Part shown: positions 8,138 to 14,740 of the stretch, piece by piece
Layout: each line of letters begins with the position of its first letter
Position numbering within the stretch: the stretch's first letter is position 1
Assembly (NCBI RefSeq): GCF_020463795.1
Contig: NZ_CP080025.1
Location: forward strand, 4,461,501 to 4,525,500
DNA: 64,000 nucleotides
Direction: 5' to 3'
DNA from: Echinicola marina
Lineage (GTDB): Bacteria; Bacteroidota; Bacteroidia; Cytophagales; Cyclobacteriaceae
Notes under the pieces: generated by a model
Told to the model about the DNA's origin: nothing
What the model saw: only the letters and a program-made list of their open reading frames with translations
Database searches by the model: none
Program-made: the position numbers and the translations under genes

Positions 8138-9313
8138 TTAATTAGAATTCTCCGGATATTTAAAACTATTAATTGTAGCAATTATTAACGCTTCAAAATC
8201 ATCATTTATAACCTTAAGATTTTCATCATATTCTGTCGGTAATGACCTAAAACTGTGAAAGACAAGCGAACGCGTCTTATAAACTGCAATCTGAGGCGAA
8301 CTTTGTTCATATTCAGGATTCACCTGTTTTAGTAGTTTATTGCAAGAAATTTTAAGAGCTTCCAATAAGGCGTTTTGTCCTATACAATAATTACTAAACA
8401 GTTTAGTAATTCTAGATTTTTCATTTGCTACAATGGTTAGTTTCTCTTTAATGTCATAAAAATTATTTACGTTATTATCGAAATCTTGAATTATAGATCC
8501 TAATTCACTTTGGAATACTTTTTCAATTAGTAATTCAATTACCTGATACAATAAATGAAATCTTATTAGTTCATGTTTCTGACTGTATAGAAAGGAAGTA
8601 AAAAGATTTAGTATAAACGGATCAGTCCTAAGATCTGGAGCTATTGATGTAAATTCTATAATCCCATTAATAGGCTTTTCTGCTCCATTTCCGTGTTCTT
8701 TATCCTTATATAGAACATTAAAGTTAGATTCTTCAATACTCATATAACCATATGACCATAAGCAAGGCAGAAAGTATTTAATTTCAAACTTAATTGCATG
8801 CACTTTCTCCCAAATTGTAACATATGGTTTATGAAGTATAAGTACATGCGTATTTTCTCCATATATAGCTTCCAAGTCAATAAAAACAGAATTTGGTATA
8901 CCCAATCTTTTATATGGCAATGCATTTTTATCAGAAAGTAATATTCTTATTGCGTGATATGCATAAGGGGAAAAATGTTCATTATCACCATAATCATGTT
9001 CTGCATTAATTAGGGATTGAATAGGTATTAAATAGCCCAATCTTCCGCGATTAGCCTCTGTCCTACTTTTTGAGTCTGAAATTTGATAAATATCATTTGC
9101 TGCAAAAGCTGAATTATGAAATAAATAAACATCAAATTGTGAATCTCGCAGGTGTGAGTAACTAGGATTCTTTTCAAAACAAAAATCACAATAGAATTCA
9201 TTTCCTGGATCCTGTGATGAACTTAACAAAAATTTATTTTTACCAGGCAGAAAACGAACTTTATCAAGATTTAATGGTTCAGGATCGTCTATTCTTAAAA
9301 ACTTTAGGCCCAT
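8138..9313 (-). CDS. Unrecognised protein with HEPN-like C-terminal domain (putative defence partner)
   Basis: 391 residues, no signal peptide. The N-terminal half is beta-rich and contains YCDFCF near residue 42, a possible half zinc knuckle. The C-terminal 170 residues are predicted helical, include HELIRFHLLYQVIELLIEKV, and end in TRSLVFHSF, which fits the HEPN nuclease motif Rx4-6H (R348, H353). HEPN proteins are typically RNases in toxin-antitoxin or abortive-infection systems. Its start codon overlaps the stop of the upstream DGQHR-like gene (TAATG), so the two are translationally coupled. Coding sequence is visibly more AT-rich than the neighbourhood, suggesting transfer. The HEPN assignment is motif-based and moderate. 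Confidence 0.75.
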   Translation of the reverse strand: MGLKFLRIDDPEPLNLDKVRFLPGKNKFLLSSSQDPGNEFYCDFCFEKNPSYSHLRDSQFDVYLFHNSAFAANDIYQISDSKSRTEANRGRLGYLIPIQSLINAEHDYGDNEHFSPYAYHAIRILLSDKNALPYKRLGIPNSVFIDLEAIYGENTHVLILHKPYVTIWEKVHAIKFEIKYFLPCLWSYGYMSIEESNFNVLYKDKEHGNGAEKPINGIIEFTSIAPDLRTDPFILNLFTSFLYSQKHELIRFHLLYQVIELLIEKVFQSELGSIIQDFDNNVNNFYDIKEKLTIVANEKSRITKLFSNYCIGQNALLEALKISCNKLLKQVNPEYEQSSPQIAVYKTRSLVFHSFRSLPTEYDENLKVINDDFEALIIATINSFKYPENSN

Positions 9314-10509
9314 TATAAGAATTCAACATTATACATTTGTCTTGCTTTCTTTATAGCCTTGTATACATCTAGCTTATTTTCTCCATGAACATTTAGTAGA
9401 GCTTTAAAGAAATGGTAAAAATACCTCCTTTGACTATTTCCAATCTTTTTTGAGGTTGATCGTATAAACTCTAAATTTTTTAAGAACTCTTCATACACTT
9501 CACTTGATTCTCCTCCCAAACTTAAATTGTCTAGTTCACTTGATAACGTATCCAAATCGGTAATCACATCATTTTCTTCTAAAATACCGATTGCAGCACC
9601 AAACGCTGTTACAACCTGAGGTCGTAAAAAGAAATTTGCAACATCTCTTCCAAATGGATGCGTATAATCTTCACTATAATCCATTTTCGTAAAATCCCAA
9701 TCATCACTCACCTGGTTAATCTTTTCCATGAACTTATGAAACACTTTTAAAAATTGCTGAAAAAGCTCCACATTCTGTCCTTTCTTTGCTAGCTTTTCCA
9801 AGCTTTTAATATCATCTAGTAAAGTTGCTCGATCTATTGATAACTCATTCTTTTCAAGGTATGATTGAAAACCGTCTACCACATCGCTGAACTTGTAATT
9901 GCCAATCCCAATTACTCTTGCTCCATCGACTTCTCTTAACAAATTCACCCCCGGAATTTTGGTATCAGTAACATAATCTTGATATAAAATCTCAATTTGA
10001 TGTCTTATAGACATAGGGGTTTGCCCAGTATTTAAAGTCAACATTCGATAAAGAATCCCGATTTTATTTATTCCAACATAAATTTCCAATCTCAATGTTC
10101 TACCTTGGAATTTCACTAAAGCTTCACTTTCTCCTGATTTCTTTAATTCATCTTCTAAGGCTAACATTTGATGTGTCCTCTGAAGTCCATCTAGTATAAT
10201 CAACTGTTTATCTCTAATTGACTGTTTAATTTCATCATCAGTTACCTTTGATAAAAATTCTTGTTCATCGCCATCAATAGCTTCTTTCCTTATTGCCAAA
10301 AAAATCGGAGGAATTGTACAACCATCTTTTAAATCATTTCTTAACAATGAGTAAACGGTTTTAGAAGACTTGACTTTCTTCCGTTGCATTTCATTATCAT
10401 CTATAATGTATTTGGCAATTTGTAAATAATCTCCAACTTTGATTTCTGCAAGGACATTCAAAGCCTCAATTTTCTCATCTATAATGCGTGAAAGAATGTC
10501 TATATTCAT
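9313..10509 (-). CDS. DGQHR/ParB-like (DndB-related fold) protein
   Basis: 398 residues. LIILDGLQRTHQMLAL (DGLQR at 107-111) resembles the DGQHR/DGQQR signature shared by DndB, DGQHR and DUF262 proteins of the ParB/sulfiredoxin-like superfamily. A second family-like block, LNTGQTPMSIRHQIEIL (from residue 159), follows at the expected distance. Residues about 60-75 (IPPIFLAI) match the strand preceding the motif. Such domains bind or hydrolyse nucleotides and occur in DNA-modification-linked and other phage-defence loci. It is the first gene of a two-gene operon with the HEPN-like gene. A dyad at 10699-10716 lies 190 bp upstream. Family-level call only; no Dnd genes are nearby. Confidence 0.8.
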   Translation of the reverse strand: MNIDILSRIIDEKIEALNVLAEIKVGDYLQIAKYIIDDNEMQRKKVKSSKTVYSLLRNDLKDGCTIPPIFLAIRKEAIDGDEQEFLSKVTDDEIKQSIRDKQLIILDGLQRTHQMLALEDELKKSGESEALVKFQGRTLRLEIYVGINKIGILYRMLTLNTGQTPMSIRHQIEILYQDYVTDTKIPGVNLLREVDGARVIGIGNYKFSDVVDGFQSYLEKNELSIDRATLLDDIKSLEKLAKKGQNVELFQQFLKVFHKFMEKINQVSDDWDFTKMDYSEDYTHPFGRDVANFFLRPQVVTAFGAAIGILEENDVITDLDTLSSELDNLSLGGESSEVYEEFLKNLEFIRSTSKKIGNSQRRYFYHFFKALLNVHGENKLDVYKAIKKARQMYNVEFL

Positions 10510-10698
10510 ATACTATTTTTTTAAATTATTACTTTAAATCTTTAACAAGAAAAGGCAAAATACTCAATTTAAAAATATTCTTAATTCTATAATCCTTCCA
10601 GAAATTTTACTCTTTTGTATTTATCTTAAAGGTAATCGTAATTAAAACCATGTTTAAAAACTAAACTCCAAATCTATCCAATACATATTCTTCTCGCA

Positions 10699-10716
10699 AT
10701 ACCCCATCTGGGGTAT
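10699..10716. promoter_or_regulatory. Dyad ATACCCCA-TC-TGGGGTAT, copy 1
   Basis: Perfect 8-bp arms around a 2-base centre, followed on + by a T-run (to 10721). A near-identical dyad lies at 12297-12314. Each stands upstream of a minus-strand gene (the DGQHR-like gene and the 248-residue protein), so it may be a shared operator; the very short loop is poor for an RNA hairpin. It is 28 bp from the motif array. Confidence 0.5.
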
Positions 10717-10744
10717 TTTTTCATTAAAACATGAATTTTTTACC

Positions 10745-11116
10745 CACCCTGTAGTCAATTCTCTACTTCCTGTACATAATTCTACCCTTCCTGTATCACT
10801 TCCCCTCTCCCCTGTTACCTTTTCCACCCTTCCTGTAGCCTGTGGACTGCATCCTGTTTGACCGGAAGGCTTTGGGAAGCTACAGGACGGGCTAATGGGT
10901 TGACCGGAAGCCTTTATACTATGACCGGAAGCCTTCATATACCTACAGGAAGGCATTACCCACCTACAGGAAGCCCTACTTTACCTACAGGAAGCATAGT
11001 TTTGGCTACAGGAAAGGTCCCGGACCTACAGGAAGGGTCCCGGACATACAAGAGGGTTCATTTGCCTACAGGAAGCCATACCTTGGGTACAGGACGGCTT
11101 CTTCAGCTACAGGAAA
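10745..11116. repeat. Helically phased array of 19 CTACAGGAAG-like motifs with two outward-facing arms
   Basis: Six motifs read on the minus strand (10-mers starting on + at 10745, 10766, 10787, 10808, 10829, 10850) and thirteen on the plus strand (10859, 10880, 10901, 10922, 10943, 10964, 10985, 11006, 11026, 11046, 11066, 11087, 11107). Spacing is 21 bp exactly through the left arm and first eight right units, then 20-21 bp, i.e. two helical turns. The consensus is CTACAGGAAG, with variants TGACCGGAAG (three units) and CTACAGGACG. The 10-11 bp between motifs are not conserved. The motifs diverge from a centre at about 10859. This resembles a multi-site protein-binding array (iteron/centromere-like) rather than CRISPR; function unknown. 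Confidence 0.85.
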
Positions 11117-11155
11117 GGTGTTTCCCCAAATTTTATTTGGAAAAAATCTAGTTTA

Positions 11156-11271
11156 ACCCGTTTTTGCAAGGTATCTTGCTAAATCAAAGCATTGCAATGC
11201 GGTTAATTGATTTTATAAATAAGGCGCTATAAACGCACGGATTTAAAAGTCCTCGTTGCAAACAAGGACTA
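11156..11271. repeat. Intergenic repeat, copy 1 (ends with GTTGCAAAC hairpin)
   Basis: Shares blocks in the same order with 14558-14740: an ACCCG start, TTGCTAAATC, TTGCAATGCGG, and the terminal hairpin GTCCTCGTTGCAAACAAGGAC (11249-11269). The copy at 14.6 kb has the large palindrome between the second block and the hairpin, here absent, which suggests that palindrome was inserted. Looks like a dispersed non-coding repeat. Confidence 0.6.
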
Positions 11272-11347
11272 GATTGCGGTTTATAGAATTAGATTGCGGT
11301 TTCATGGTGTGAGATCACTTCGCGCTGCTCGTGATGACGTGAAACCA

Positions 11348-11379
11348 TTACTAGGAGTAGCATATGCTACACCTAGTAA
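11348..11379. repeat. Palindrome family copy A (core GTAGCATATGCTAC)
   Basis: 32-bp palindrome: arms TTACTAGG / CCTAGTAA flank the 14-bp core, with one A-A mismatch on each side of it. Related copies at 12332, 13279, 14614 and 17128 have the same or a variant core but different arms that remain self-complementary. It is preceded by GATCACTTCGCGCTGCTCGTGATGAC-type repeat sequence (about 11310-11337). Confidence 0.8.
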
Positions 11380-11423
11380 CCGTACATAATCCTACCCCGC
11401 ATTTGTATTGCAACTTATGCAAC

Positions 11424-11456
11424 AAAAAAAGCCGCTTCCTAATTAAAGAAAGCGGC
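11424..11456 (-). terminator. Rho-independent terminator of the 248-residue protein gene
   Basis: On the minus strand: stem GCCGCTT/AAGCGGC (7 bp, arms at 11450-11456 and 11431-11437) followed by seven T. It lies 29 bp after the stop codon at 11485, in the right orientation for that gene. Confidence 0.8.
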
Positions 11457-11484
11457 ACTATCTTACTGATAAATATAGACTAAC

Positions 11485-12231
11485 TTAATTGTCCATAAAA
11501 TCCTCTGATGATCTTTCAGGGCGGCCTTTATTGATCTTGCGATAGTAGGCACTGGTAAAGCCTTTGAGCTTTTCGGGATTTTTACGGAATACATATTTGC
11601 CCGTCTCCCGAACTTCGTCCACGGCTGTTTTCAGCAGCGTATAGGCCTTGTCCCGTATGATCTTGGCCTCATTATTCGTGGCGCTTTCCCCATTCATCTG
11701 AGCCAATAGCTCAGACATTTCTGTAGCAGTATCCTCGGCCAGCTGTAGCTTTTCGGCACTCACCCCAATGGCTTTGAGCAAGGAAAAATTGGCATTGCCC
11801 AAGGCTGCCAGATCACTCAGGTCCTGCACCATATCCGCATGGCTGGTCCCCTGCTCTACTTGCTGAACCTTGGCCAGTAGATCGGATCGCTTACGGAAAG
11901 CAAAGCGGCAATCTGCCTCTAGGTCATTTTTCAGCTCCAATGCCACAGGAGACTTTTCCTCCCATTTTCGTCGGGCCTCTTCCTGGATATTGAATTCCTT
12001 CATCCACAGGGACTGTGCATGGCGCAAGGCTCCGGCATATATCGGTAGTTTTTCGGCAAACTCCCAATCCATACCGGCCTTTTTCATCGCTGATTTTTCA
12101 TCTTCCACCCATACAGCTAGGTCTGCTGCCTCTTGGACATAAATATCCACGGGAATGGCCGGGATATTGGCATCTTCGGTGGAAATGGTCTTAAGCTCCT
12201 CAAGGGTAGCTTCATAATTTTGTTTTGACAT
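11485..12231 (-). CDS. Unrecognised helical cytoplasmic protein next to the motif array
   Basis: 248 residues, predicted almost wholly alpha-helical, no signal peptide or membrane segment, no cysteines apart from one. Notable features: repeated charged helices (ALRHAQSLWMKEF, DLEADCRFAFRKRSDLLAKV), a central HADMVQDLSDLAALGNAN, and a basic C-terminus (RKNPEKLKGFTSAYYRKINKGRPERSS). I cannot assign a family. It has its own terminator and a dyad 66 bp upstream of its start, and the spacer downstream of it holds the phased motif array, so a DNA-binding or packaging role for this protein on that array is a testable idea, not a conclusion. Codon use is more GC-rich than the DGQHR/HEPN pair. Confidence 0.8.
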   Translation of the reverse strand: MSKQNYEATLEELKTISTEDANIPAIPVDIYVQEAADLAVWVEDEKSAMKKAGMDWEFAEKLPIYAGALRHAQSLWMKEFNIQEEARRKWEEKSPVALELKNDLEADCRFAFRKRSDLLAKVQQVEQGTSHADMVQDLSDLAALGNANFSLLKAIGVSAEKLQLAEDTATEMSELLAQMNGESATNNEAKIIRDKAYTLLKTAVDEVRETGKYVFRKNPEKLKGFTSAYYRKINKGRPERSSEDFMDN

Positions 12232-12296
12232 AAAAACTTGGATTTAGTTAAAAAATACTTTTCACCTAAACCTAAAATAATCAGTTAATTAAGTCA

Positions 12297-12314
12297 ATAC
12301 CCCATGTGGGGTAT
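12297..12314. promoter_or_regulatory. Dyad ATACCCCA-TG-TGGGGTAT, copy 2
   Basis: Same 8-bp arms as the dyad at 10699 with the centre changed from TC to TG and the same following T-run (to 12319). It lies 66 bp upstream of the start codon at 12231 (minus strand), in promoter range, and 18 bp from the palindrome at 12332. Confidence 0.5.
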
Positions 12315-12331
12315 TTTTTACATCCCTAACC

Positions 12332-12365
12332 ATTCCAGGGTGTAGCATATGCTACACCCTGGAAT
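12332..12365. repeat. Palindrome family copy B
   Basis: Perfect 34-bp palindrome: arms ATTCCAGGGT / ACCCTGGAAT around the core GTAGCATATGCTAC. Located between the divergent 248-residue gene (minus) and the TauE gene (plus). Confidence 0.85.
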
Positions 12366-12502
12366 TACCAAGTAATTACACAAGTGCATTGAGATTGTAA
12401 TTAATTTCTGATTTAAGCCAGCTTATTTCGCCGGTCTTCCGGCTCTTTTTTTTAAGTTTGCGGGATTGAATAGATTTTGTCATTCCCTTTTGACCACCAT
12501 TT

Positions 12503-13258
12503 ATGTTTTTATCCCTTATCTCAGAAATCAGTACCGCTTCATGGATTTTAAGTTTTTTAGCCGCTTTTGTGATCGGATTGTCCAAAGCCGGCATCAAAGG
12601 AATAGCAGTCATCAATGTGATTTTTATGGCCATAGCCTTCGAAGCTAAACAATCCACTGGCATCGTATTGCCCCTATTGATAGTGGCAGATGTGTTTGCG
12701 GTGATCTATTATAATCGACATACCCAATGGAAATACGTGGCCAAATTTCTTCCCTGGATGATATTGGGAATCGTGCTGGGAAGTTGGTTTGGTATGGACC
12801 TTCCTGAGCAAACCTTTAAAATCATTATGGCCATCATTATCTTCCTTACCGTAATCTTTATCGTCTGGTGGGATCAAAAAAAGGTAAAAGATGTACCGAC
12901 TCACTGGGCGTTTGCAAGTGGTGTTGGGACCTTGGCTGGCTTTACCACCATGGTCGGTAACTTGGCCGGGCCAATATCCAATATTTACTTTTTGGCCATG
13001 AGACTACCCAAAAATCAATTTATAGGAACCGCTGCCTGGCTTTTTATGATTATCAATGTGTTCAAATTACCCTTCCATTTCTTTGTCTGGAACACCATTA
13101 CTGAAGAAACCCTCCTACTCGATCTGAAATTGGTTCCAGGAATAATTCTCGGATTTATATTAGGAATCAAGATCGTTAAAAGGATCGATGAAGCCTTTTT
13201 TAGAAAAATGATTTTGGTATTAACAGCCCTGGGAGCTATTGTTATTTTGTTTAAGTAA
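12503..13258 (+). CDS. TauE/SafE-family sulfite/organosulfonate exporter-like membrane protein
   Basis: 251 residues, about eight hydrophobic segments, with TauE/SafE (DUF81) features: FVIGLSKAGIKGI in the first repeat and LAGFTTMVGNLAGPISNIYFLA in the second, the two inverted halves typical of the family. Members export sulfite or sulfoacetate-type anions, or have unknown cargo; substrate is not determinable here. The chosen ATG at 12503 places the first helix directly at the N-terminus. Flanked on both sides by palindromic repeats (12332 and 13279), as if a single-gene cassette. Confidence 0.9.
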   Translation: MFLSLISEISTASWILSFLAAFVIGLSKAGIKGIAVINVIFMAIAFEAKQSTGIVLPLLIVADVFAVIYYNRHTQWKYVAKFLPWMILGIVLGSWFGMDLPEQTFKIIMAIIIFLTVIFIVWWDQKKVKDVPTHWAFASGVGTLAGFTTMVGNLAGPISNIYFLAMRLPKNQFIGTAAWLFMIINVFKLPFHFFVWNTITEETLLLDLKLVPGIILGFILGIKIVKRIDEAFFRKMILVLTALGAIVILFK

Positions 13259-13278
13259 GCGATGCTGGTTAGAAAAGG

Positions 13279-13312
13279 TTACTAGGTGTAGTAAATACTA
13301 CACACCTAGTAA
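13279..13312. repeat. Palindrome family copy C (imperfect)
   Basis: Arms TTACTAGGTGTAGTA and TACTACACACCTAGTAA are complementary apart from a two-base CA bulge. The central bases are changed relative to the other copies (GTAGTAAATACTAC instead of GTAGCATATGCTAC), again symmetrically. Sits between the convergent TauE and AhpD-like genes. Confidence 0.75.
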
Positions 13313-13341
13313 TAATAAATCACTATACCCAGTATTGGCTT

Positions 13342-13800
13342 TTAAACCTCAAAATTATATTCCTCCATTATAGGTTTTGAAGTACTTACGGAAATCCTAT
13401 TCCACGCATTAATGGTGACTATTGCCATAATTATCTGCGCTATATAATTCCCATCAAACCGCTCAATGGCCTTCTCATAGGTTTCATCTGTCAGGCCTTT
13501 CTGATGGATCAGGGTAACTTCCTCTGTCATTTGAAAGATCAGTTTTTCCTCCTCACTAAAGCAATTGGACTCTTTCCAGGCATTGAGTAGAAATAGTCTT
13601 TGCTGTGTCTCTCCATCGCGCAAGGCTTCTTTGGTATGCATATCTATACAAAAGGCACAGCCATTGAGTTGAGAAGCCCTTATATAAATCAAATGCTTGT
13701 GACGGACATTTAAACTACTCACTTTCAAATAGTTTTCCAGCCTAAACATACCTTTATAAGCATCAGGCGCTATTGATTCAATTTGAATTCTGCTTTTCAT
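13342..13800 (-). CDS. Carboxymuconolactone decarboxylase/AhpD-like alkylhydroperoxidase
   Basis: 152 residues, all-helical, with the AhpD core C48-A-F-C51-x3-H55 (GCAFCIDMHTKEAL), the redox pair and general base of the family. Members act as thiol peroxidase/reductase adaptors in the cytoplasm. It follows a Crp-like regulator gene by 65 bp on the same strand, a frequent Bacteroidota arrangement in which the regulator controls the small oxidative-stress gene; that link is inferred. Confidence 0.92.
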   Translation of the reverse strand: MKSRIQIESIAPDAYKGMFRLENYLKVSSLNVRHKHLIYIRASQLNGCAFCIDMHTKEALRDGETQQRLFLLNAWKESNCFSEEEKLIFQMTEEVTLIHQKGLTDETYEKAIERFDGNYIAQIIMAIVTINAWNRISVSTSKPIMEEYNFEV

Positions 13801-13865
13801 AGTCTTTTTTGTTTTTGTCTATGACAAAGCTATGGGGCATGGTGGTGATAAGTCCTTAAACTGGT

Positions 13866-14462
13866 TTAAGAAAGTTGTTTCCTCCGTATTTCGCTCACAT
13901 ATTCTGGCGTTAATCCCAAATAGGAAGCAATGAGGTATTGGGGGACCCTTTGTTCGAAGTCAGGAAAGTTTCTAGTAAAATGTAAATAGATCTCCTCCTT
14001 TGACAGTTCAAATTGATACTTTACCCGCATTAATGAGGCTCCATAGGCTATCTGGAGCACTTTTCTAAAGTACTTTTCCAATTTTGGAAACCTTTCTAGG
14101 AGTTGCTCTTGGCTTGAAAAATCGATACTGAGAATGGTAGCAGGTTCAACCGATTGGATAAAAAACTCCGTTTTCTGCTCATTGCCAAAAGCCAAATAGT
14201 CTGTAATCCACCAGTTTTCTATGGCAAATTGAAGAGTTTGCTTGGAGCCGTTTGCATCGATAAAGTACATGTTCAAGCAACCATTAAGCACAAAAAATTG
14301 CTTATCACATAATGTATCGGCAAGCATCAAATGCTCCTTTTTCTTCACTTTTAAGGTTTGGAATGCTCCAAGGATTTCTTCAAAATCATCTTCCCTTATA
14401 TCGGTGAACCGATTTATATGAAGAAATAAAGGATGCGTTGTATGGGGATTGTTCTTATTCAT
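13866..14462 (-). CDS. Crp/Fnr-family transcriptional regulator
   Basis: 198 residues: a cyclic-nucleotide-binding-like beta-roll (about 15-120; ADTLCDKQFFVLNGCLNMYFIDANGSKQTL) and a C-terminal winged-helix (VPQYLIASYLGLTPEYVSEIRRKQ). It lacks the Cys cluster of Fnr and the full cAMP-contact motif of Crp, so its ligand is unknown. It is the gene before the AhpD-like peroxidase and probably controls it and/or itself. Confidence 0.92.
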   Translation of the reverse strand: MNKNNPHTTHPLFLHINRFTDIREDDFEEILGAFQTLKVKKKEHLMLADTLCDKQFFVLNGCLNMYFIDANGSKQTLQFAIENWWITDYLAFGNEQKTEFFIQSVEPATILSIDFSSQEQLLERFPKLEKYFRKVLQIAYGASLMRVKYQFELSKEEIYLHFTRNFPDFEQRVPQYLIASYLGLTPEYVSEIRRKQLS

Positions 14463-14557: not shown

Positions 14558-14740
14558 ACCCGCGTTTAAAAGGCGAGTTGCTAAATCCAAGTATTTGCAA
14601 TGCGGCTATTGATCCAACACTGGGCGTAGCATATGCTACGCCCAGTGTTGGTAATGCATTTAAAATGCAGTTGTTTAATTATTGAAAAATGCGTTAAAAA
14701 TGCTAGAATTTAAAAAGTCCCCGTTGCAAACGAGGACTAA
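14558..14740. repeat. Intergenic repeat, copy 2, interrupted by palindrome D
   Basis: Same ordered blocks as 11156-11271 (ACCCGCG, TTGCTAAATC, TTGCAATGCGG and the hairpin GTCCCCGTTGCAAACGAGGAC at 14717-14737). The 38-bp palindrome at 14614 lies between the second block and the hairpin. Confidence 0.6.
14614..14651. repeat. Palindrome family copy D (perfect, 38 bp)
   Basis: Arms CCAACACTGGGC / GCCCAGTGTTGG, 12 bp each, around the core GTAGCATATGCTAC, with no mismatch over 38 bp. Its left arm and the first three bases of the core recur alone at 4179-4193. Confidence 0.9.

Follow-up and report, generated by a model that had tools for sequence, protein, structure and literature searches.

The window, a 64,000-nucleotide stretch of Echinicola marina DNA, contains at 10745–11116 an array of 19 short words and, beside it, a gene for a 248-aa protein. 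The features of this region are the following:

10698..10717, no strand: outer dyad AATACCCCATCTGGGGTATT, beyond the left arm of the array
10745..10859, minus strand: left arm of the array, 6 words in minus-strand orientation at 21-bp steps
10850..10868, no strand: central dyad, where the arms stand back to back, with the innermost words 9 bp apart (10850 to 10859)
10859..11116, plus strand: right arm of the array, 13 words in plus-strand orientation
11126..11140, no strand: CCAAATTTTATTTGG at the outer end of the right arm, read by eye
11424..11456, minus strand: probable intrinsic terminator of the 248-aa gene, a hairpin followed by a T-run on the minus strand, identified by eye
11485..12231, minus strand: gene for the 248-aa all-helical protein, with a putative reading tail at the C-terminus around GFTSAYYRKINK, from residue 224
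12296..12315, no strand: matching dyad AATACCCCATGTGGGGTATT, just upstream of the 248-aa gene

A mismatch scan for CTACAGGAAG-like 10-bp words gave 6 words on the minus strand and 13 on the plus strand, the numbers reported in an earlier note on this DNA; word 10808, with 5 mismatches, falls below the limit of the scan and was read by eye. Left-arm words start at 10745, 10766, 10787, 10808, 10829 and 10850, and right-arm words at 10859, 10880, 10901, 10922, 10943, 10964, 10985, 11006, 11026, 11046, 11066, 11087 and 11107. The two arms point outward from one centre, the dyad at 10850–10868, as the earlier note had described. Its run of 21-bp steps over the first 14 words holds within each arm but not as a single run, since a 9-bp step separates the arms. 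In the right arm, 21-bp steps over the first 8 sites are followed by steps of 20, 20, 20, 21 and 20 bp, in agreement with the 20–21-bp spacing previously described there. Six of the 19 words are degenerate, with at least 3 mismatches (10808, 10850, 10859, 10901, 10922 and 11046).

Beyond 10701–11151, the window contains no perfect word and, on both strands together, four words with at most one mismatch. When 181 overlapping 700-bp tiles of the window were scored by autocorrelation at lags of 20, 21, 41 and 42 bp, the two tiles holding the array came out on top (0.56, the next at 0.44); in a genus-mate control, 2 of 340 sampled tiles reached 0.45 and none reached 0.50. A coding repeat was considered as a reading of the array and rejected, since the words lie on both strands and the 20-bp steps break the frame. 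The open frames across the array are trivial for the same reason, and the view that conservation acts on the DNA motif and not on codons is upheld. The bracketing dyads that had been reported are present at 10698–10717 and 12296–12315, where they form a direct repeat around the module, and both ends are also recognisable in a second genome, G207. Hairpin cores of the type GTAGCATATGCTAC, which are REP-like dispersed repeats, lie at 11357–11370, 12342–12355 and 14626–14639; near the module, four matches with at most 2 mismatches were found against 0.12 expected.

The 248-aa protein matched nothing in Pfam at E ≤ 1, found no convincing match in PHROGs or PADLOC (best PHROGs E 0.076) and had no relative among PDB sequences (best E 0.57). 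Its predicted structure is all-helical (mean pLDDT 89.3, pTM 0.72). Foldseek searches with this model returned nothing at E ≤ 0.001 in the PDB or a viral library, long helical bundles being hard cases, and no known DNA-binding fold was recognised in these two sets. The one NCBIfam match, to NF052641 (‘PQLLE family’), is weak (E 2.7e-6) and at 27.2 bits lies far under the 80-bit cut-off, which does not place the protein in that family. On the other side of the array, at 8138–10509, genes match PADLOC DzbA (E 5.3e-134) and DzbB (E 3.1e-59), a pair from the Dazbog anti-phage system.

Linkage of the gene to a helically phased array

Of 295 genomes from the same family, 27 have homologues of the 248-aa protein, spread over 10 of 84 genera, at up to 4 copies per genome. 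An order-wide draw contained them in 6 of 390 genomes, a phylum-wide draw of 395 genomes in the window's own genome only, and a further family (f15) in 2 of 15; a named genome collection added one Salinivirgaceae bacterium and three Sunxiuqinia genomes. Searches of 37 candidate viral stretches, 72,556 plasmid records (tblastn) and 50,697 phage records gave no homologue.

Forty-nine loci were oriented by the gene and examined for arrays on the 3' side; this set omits repeat fetches of one place and broken or fragmentary copies (L031, L045/L046, L059). Periodicity was tested at 47 loci, excluding L011 and L055, where the contig ends 3' of the gene. At 43 of the 47, periodicity at 20, 21, 41 and 42 bp in the 3' 700 bp exceeded that of all 200 dinucleotide shuffles, which supports the proposed tie between array and gene; 6 of the 46 upstream flanks and 1 of the 47 gene sequences did likewise. 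At L009 and L030, one shuffle of 200 was as periodic; at L006 the number was 48, because the array there begins 583 bp from the gene, largely past the tested 700 bp. A gene kept without its array, which the earlier note held would speak against a linked system, was encountered at one testable locus, L027 (128 of 200 shuffles as periodic), leaving 46 loci for motif comparison. An autocorrelation of 0.45 was reached by 41 of the 47 3' flanks versus 2 of the 340 random tiles. Six of the nine loci flagged upstream (at most 2 of 200 shuffles) were viewed as possible upstream arrays and rejected: the G131 paralogues L021 and L051 carry heptamer repeats of the CAACTGG/ACTGGGT type there, and in the other four no such array was visible by eye.

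Arrays contain 6 to 19 counted sites. Word-to-word steps of 19, 20, 21 and 22 bp numbered 1, 93, 246 and 10; of the 350 steps shorter than 30 bp, 339 thus measure 20 or 21 bp. As the chain search admitted only steps of 19–22 bp, what informs is how the steps divide among these lengths. The word itself is GC-rich, and GC content falls to a minimum of 0.20–0.27 about 13–15 bp after the word start, roughly one turn on, from which we infer that on one helix face each GC-rich segment is followed, a turn later, by an AT-rich one. Wherever both orientations occur, the words face outward. Once in register, the central step is 9 bp in L001, L006, L007, L021, L052, L058, L113 and L114 and 10 bp in L024, and it deviates in L028, L029, L047, L051, L060 and L061. 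Many Cyclobacteriaceae-type arrays have the far arm only, and the hairpin near the gene end there often includes the motif. Such motif-holding hairpins were flagged at 15 of 46 loci, and in L016, L020, L022, L025, L065 and L066 a hairpin is followed by at least 4 T in 9 nt. In many loci the array starts right behind the stop codon. Spacers of the type AATWTTATTTG recur, by eye, in other arrays, and spacers of the types AATATTATTTG or AATTTTATTTG turn up again in arrays whose words differ (L010, L013, L014, L022, L030 and the window at 11126–11140), as if a second, common factor bound between the words.

When ORFs of at least 120 aa from 26 loci were clustered, no family recurred in more than 3 loci, and neither ParA, ParM, TubZ or Rep genes nor a transposase or recombinase gene recurred beside the homologues. 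The gene neighbourhood thus gives no backing to an iteron or centromere function as the earlier note had suggested it.

Arrays also occur away from the gene. In the window's own genome, a second and smaller array with this word lies at a distance of 1.14 Mb, and G207, which has a single gene, carries four arrays that all share one word. Of the 295 genomes, 27 contain a strict four-word CAGGA pattern, which on inspection marks arrays of this kind in 18 and simple or coding repeats in 9. The 18 genomes fall into 6 genera, all within the 10 gene-carrying ones; 5 have no match to the gene and 1 has a fragment only. Intact arrays without a gene are found in G190, G111, G055, G235 and G124, whereas G000 has the gene but a shrunken orphan array. 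Two orphan loci tested by alignment proved orthologous to the orphan arrays of G190 and G111, both of which lack the gene. Orthologous orphan arrays change faster than their flanks, mainly by indels, and the G000 and G190 arrays differ by an exact 42-bp (two-unit) deletion. These stand-alone arrays fit a protein acting in trans, or arrays that have outlived lost genes. In G221, all that is left of the gene at L120/L031 is a C-terminal fragment, accompanied by its own array of 20-bp period, and three stand-alone arrays lie elsewhere in the genome.

The place of the gene is kept between G000 and G207. In their gene-linked arrays, word columns are 79–81% identical and spacers 61%, a comparison biased by the picking of columns for consensus match; four other array comparisons were dominated by gaps or near-identity. 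Coarse GC skew in G207 (20 samples of 12 kb) changes sign near 1.2–1.5 Mb and 4.2–4.8 Mb. The arrays, at 0.44, 3.13, 3.53 and 4.39 Mb, are not grouped around either skew switch, though the gene-linked one lies near the second.

At three weak NF052641 matches (L152–L154), a strong 21-bp array immediately precedes the gene, and its words contain GGAA or GTGGAA. NF052641 matches occur in 5 of 295 genomes of the class, the window's own among them. One strong match above the cut-off (L151, on contig C58 of G1212) has no 21-bp array and ends in GRPRGRKRKS, which is AT-hook-like. Since profile comparison of L154 with the 248-aa family was weak (probability 9.9%, E 0.0032), the link to L152–L154 rests on the shared NF052641 matches, by which they are probable distant relatives. 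If this relation is real, the association of array and gene predates the family. L152 and L154 have extra C-terminal stretches, that of L154 resembling, by eye, a carboxypeptidase-regulatory-like domain.

Covariation and joint replacement of protein tail and array word

Consensus words differ from gene copy to gene copy: the right half, GGA(A), is common, and the four preceding bases are variable (register set by eye). Using a register-free motif similarity and the last ~8 residues as the tail, the partial Mantel correlation of motif with tail, given the protein body, was 0.376 at the 46 loci (0 of 5000 permutations), and 0.368 (0 of 5000) when near-duplicates were collapsed to 38 loci. The partial correlation of motif with body given tail was 0.364, as expected from shared descent. 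Among pairs with body identity above 0.7, motif similarity was 0.72–0.99 for the 11 with tail identity of at least 0.85 and 0.28–0.95 for the 16 with tail identity below 0.6 (Mann-Whitney p 0.001). The word tends to change with the last few residues of the protein.

The tail follows the pattern G-Y-x-S-x-Y-z. In tail classes that were picked after the data had been seen, all 4 loci with z = L (L022, L057, L065, L066) have TCAGGA, all 3 with H-W (L012, L030, L047) have CATG, 5 of the 8 with z = H have CCGGGA and 4 of the 9 with z = F have GCAGG. The exceptions with z = H, L062–L064, come from two genomes of one genus and have ACAGGG; L014 and L029 also depart from the relation, and G208 has a GCAGGA array without a GCAGGA-type tail. 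A class test on pairs limited by body identity gave 0 of 2000 permutations below 0.7 and 1 of 2000 below 0.6. Below 50% body identity, tail class did not predict the word (260 of 2000), and any tail code is therefore confined to the main family and not common to all relatives. Within that family, the pairings YL/TCAGGA, HW/CATG and YH/CCGGGA may represent a short recognition code.

Paralogues in one genome mostly have words of their own. By consensus, copies carry different motifs in 9 of the 12 genomes with at least two readable arrays (G131, G225, G007, G133, G284, G289, G032, G103 and G200, the two of G032 being similar). TCAGGA is common to two of three copies in G191, and in G072 and G339 both copies agree in word and likewise in tail.

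Two contigs of the draft genome G200, C65 and C93, are nearly identical over an alignment of about 24.7–24.8 kb, with 18 mismatches in 6.8 kb at the far contig end and then 1 in 17.9 kb. The last ~140 bp of the gene contain at least 10 mismatches, and there is no alignment past the gene. Because the contigs part within this segment, tail (GYKSAYFRNR of L008 in C65, GYKSMYHSK of L032 in C93) and array (word CGCAGGA and CCCGGGA, respectively) change together. The case comes from one draft assembly with a listed contamination of 5%, and the contigs may represent two variants in the sequenced population, a large duplication or an effect of the assembly. An ORF with the motif HIYNH...MPNHFHFLV lies 3' of the C93 array (L032); it is presumably a TnpA_REP-like, REP-associated Y1 transposase.

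A second pair within one genome is L026/L056 in G133, whose bodies are 97% identical. DNA identity is 0.94–0.95 in the body and 0.92–0.97 between 240 and 120 bp ahead of the gene end; it then declines to 0.87, reaches 0.58 over the final 60 bp of the gene and is 0.51 or less beyond it. Pairs with the same tail (L048/L049, L062/L063, L065/L066 and L060/L061) retain an identity of 0.79–0.98 over the first 100 bp on the array side; the same-tail pair L001/L006 is an exception at 0.58, and other repeats lie between gene and array there. Since the tail-coding end adjoins the array, one recombination could swap both.

Proposed working and alternatives

These results suggest an undescribed family of DNA-binding proteins, each reading its own address label. 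We favour, as a probable explanation taken as a whole, that gene and array form one module in which the C-terminal tail of a DNA-binding protein reads its own helically phased array and the protein assembles there into a partition-like (centromere) complex. We infer direct binding, oligomerisation and double-stranded DNA as the target. The conserved all-helical body would serve oligomerisation, and the short basic, aromatic tail (G-Y-x-S-x-Y-z...) would read a word of ~7 bp, roughly N4-GGA(A), in the major groove. Molecules would occupy successive words on one helix face, 20–21 bp or two turns apart, and assembly would run outward both ways from the central dyad to give an extended nucleoprotein assembly. 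With its own tail and its own word for each copy, paralogues in one cell need not cross-react, and arrays elsewhere in the genome could be bound in trans. More speculatively, the likeliest cellular use would be a partition- or organiser-like complex that clusters or tethers DNA; it might also control its own gene, the terminator of which frequently overlaps the dyad at the centre.

Such control could be the whole function. An autogenous regulator acting in cis on its own 3' region, terminator dyad and array together, would have no DNA-organising role, and it would account for arrays that begin right past the stop codon and for the motif within the gene-end hairpin of L016, L020, L022, L025, L065 and L066. 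Stand-alone arrays of the same word elsewhere in the genome speak against it; moreover, 6–19 sites are many for simple autoregulation, and the probable distant relatives have the array upstream instead. We consider cis-regulation alone unlikely.

The patchy distribution (27 of 295 genomes, up to 4 copies each) could also reflect a selfish or mobile element, with the array as its recognition or maintenance site and stand-alone arrays as remnants after gene loss. The restriction of stand-alone arrays, by inspection, to gene-carrying genera, the direct-repeat dyads at both ends of the window module and the presumed TnpA_REP-like transposase adjoining one array are compatible with this reading. 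However, no transposase or recombinase gene recurs nearby, the gene has the same position in G000 and G207, and the viral stretches, plasmid and phage records contained no homologue (0 in 37, 72,556 and 50,697, respectively), which makes a mobile element an improbable account.

Since arrays lie 3' of the gene and close by, they might be transcribed as a 3' UTR, with the protein binding repeated RNA words. The window array does fold better than 100 of 100 shuffles (z -3.33), but this follows from its two inverted arms: one-armed arrays gave no clear fold (z -1.75 and +0.83, with 10 and 161 of 200 shuffles as good). Words in both orientations about a dyad, a 21-bp helical phasing that is meaningless for single strands and the lack of an Rfam match in the window at 9000–14000 make an RNA target very unlikely. 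Hitch-hiking, in which arrays and genes are co-inherited tandem repeats without physical contact between protein and DNA, would explain arrays kept in genomes without the gene and near-identical copies that have both by descent, but it is hardly credible given that motif–tail covariation survives the control for body identity, that phasing is exact despite unrelated spacers and that the differences between orthologous arrays come in whole units, such as 42 bp.

Relation to known systems and meaning

A tail-reading protein assembled on its own array would have parallels in plasmid partition, where a protein assembles along DNA repeat sites (PMC5016525) and the specificity of ParR families for their parC sites separates coexisting plasmids (PMC9426499). 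Like type II ParR–parC, the module would combine a DNA-binding protein, here putative, with an adjacent short-repeat array on which it assembles, and it would have cognate specificity between families and several systems per cell (PMC9426499, PMC5016525). Unlike ParR–parC, it is chromosomal with no ParM-like motor gene alongside, it has 20–21-bp steps in two outward arms instead of ~10-bp iterons, and its helical body has no recognised ribbon-helix-helix, the putative specificity following a short C-terminal tail. No adjacent actin-like ParM gene recurred among the clustered ORFs of the 26 loci, the window neighbours being DzbA and DzbB, and no ribbon-helix-helix protein was detected by Pfam (E ≤ 1), the all-helical model or the PDB search (E ≤ 0.001). 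Single-protein plasmid partition by pSK1 Par and StbA uses a repeat array, no NTPase and helix-turn-helix domains. The 248-aa protein resembles these in pairing one protein without an NTPase with a repeat array, but no likeness to them was found in its sequence or fold. The type Ia sites sopC and parS are likewise short, being inverted repeats embedded in longer iterons, either at a single locus or spread across the genome (PMC5016525); the words here, by contrast, are single outward half-sites around one dyad, and no ParA or ParB homology was found. Since no motor gene, known DNA-binding fold or plasmid was seen, we do not file the module as a partition member.

An iteron origin with a winged-helix Rep on a plasmid finds no match either in Pfam or, by tblastn, in the 72,556 plasmid records. 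CRISPR arrays have repeats of ~21–48 bp with spacers and cas genes; the window array has 10-bp words with 11-bp gaps in both orientations, and no cas gene was noticed beside it. Phased single words without a recurring transposase also differ from REP/RAYT systems, which consist of dispersed short palindromes and a Y1 transposase. At the NF052641 matches L152–L154, strong 21-bp arrays also adjoin the gene but lie upstream. We found no published description of this gene–array system in the open-access literature searched, within which the earlier view that no named element matches holds. Tentatively, the module could represent a new class of DNA addressing, in which the last ~8 residues of a helical protein are an exchangeable reading head, head and adjacent array are rewritten together in one recombination, and stand-alone arrays are further chromosomal addresses.

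The signal lies at the motif level beside a hypothetical gene, where annotation pipelines have missed it. If binding is confirmed, the modules would define an unnamed protein family of unassigned fold with a short programmable DNA-reading tail, and the tail code could serve the design of short DNA-binding peptides. The natural swaps of tail plus array would then be ready-made cognate and non-cognate pairs, and would provide natural near-isogenic variants to test how paralogous DNA-organising systems stay separate in one cell.
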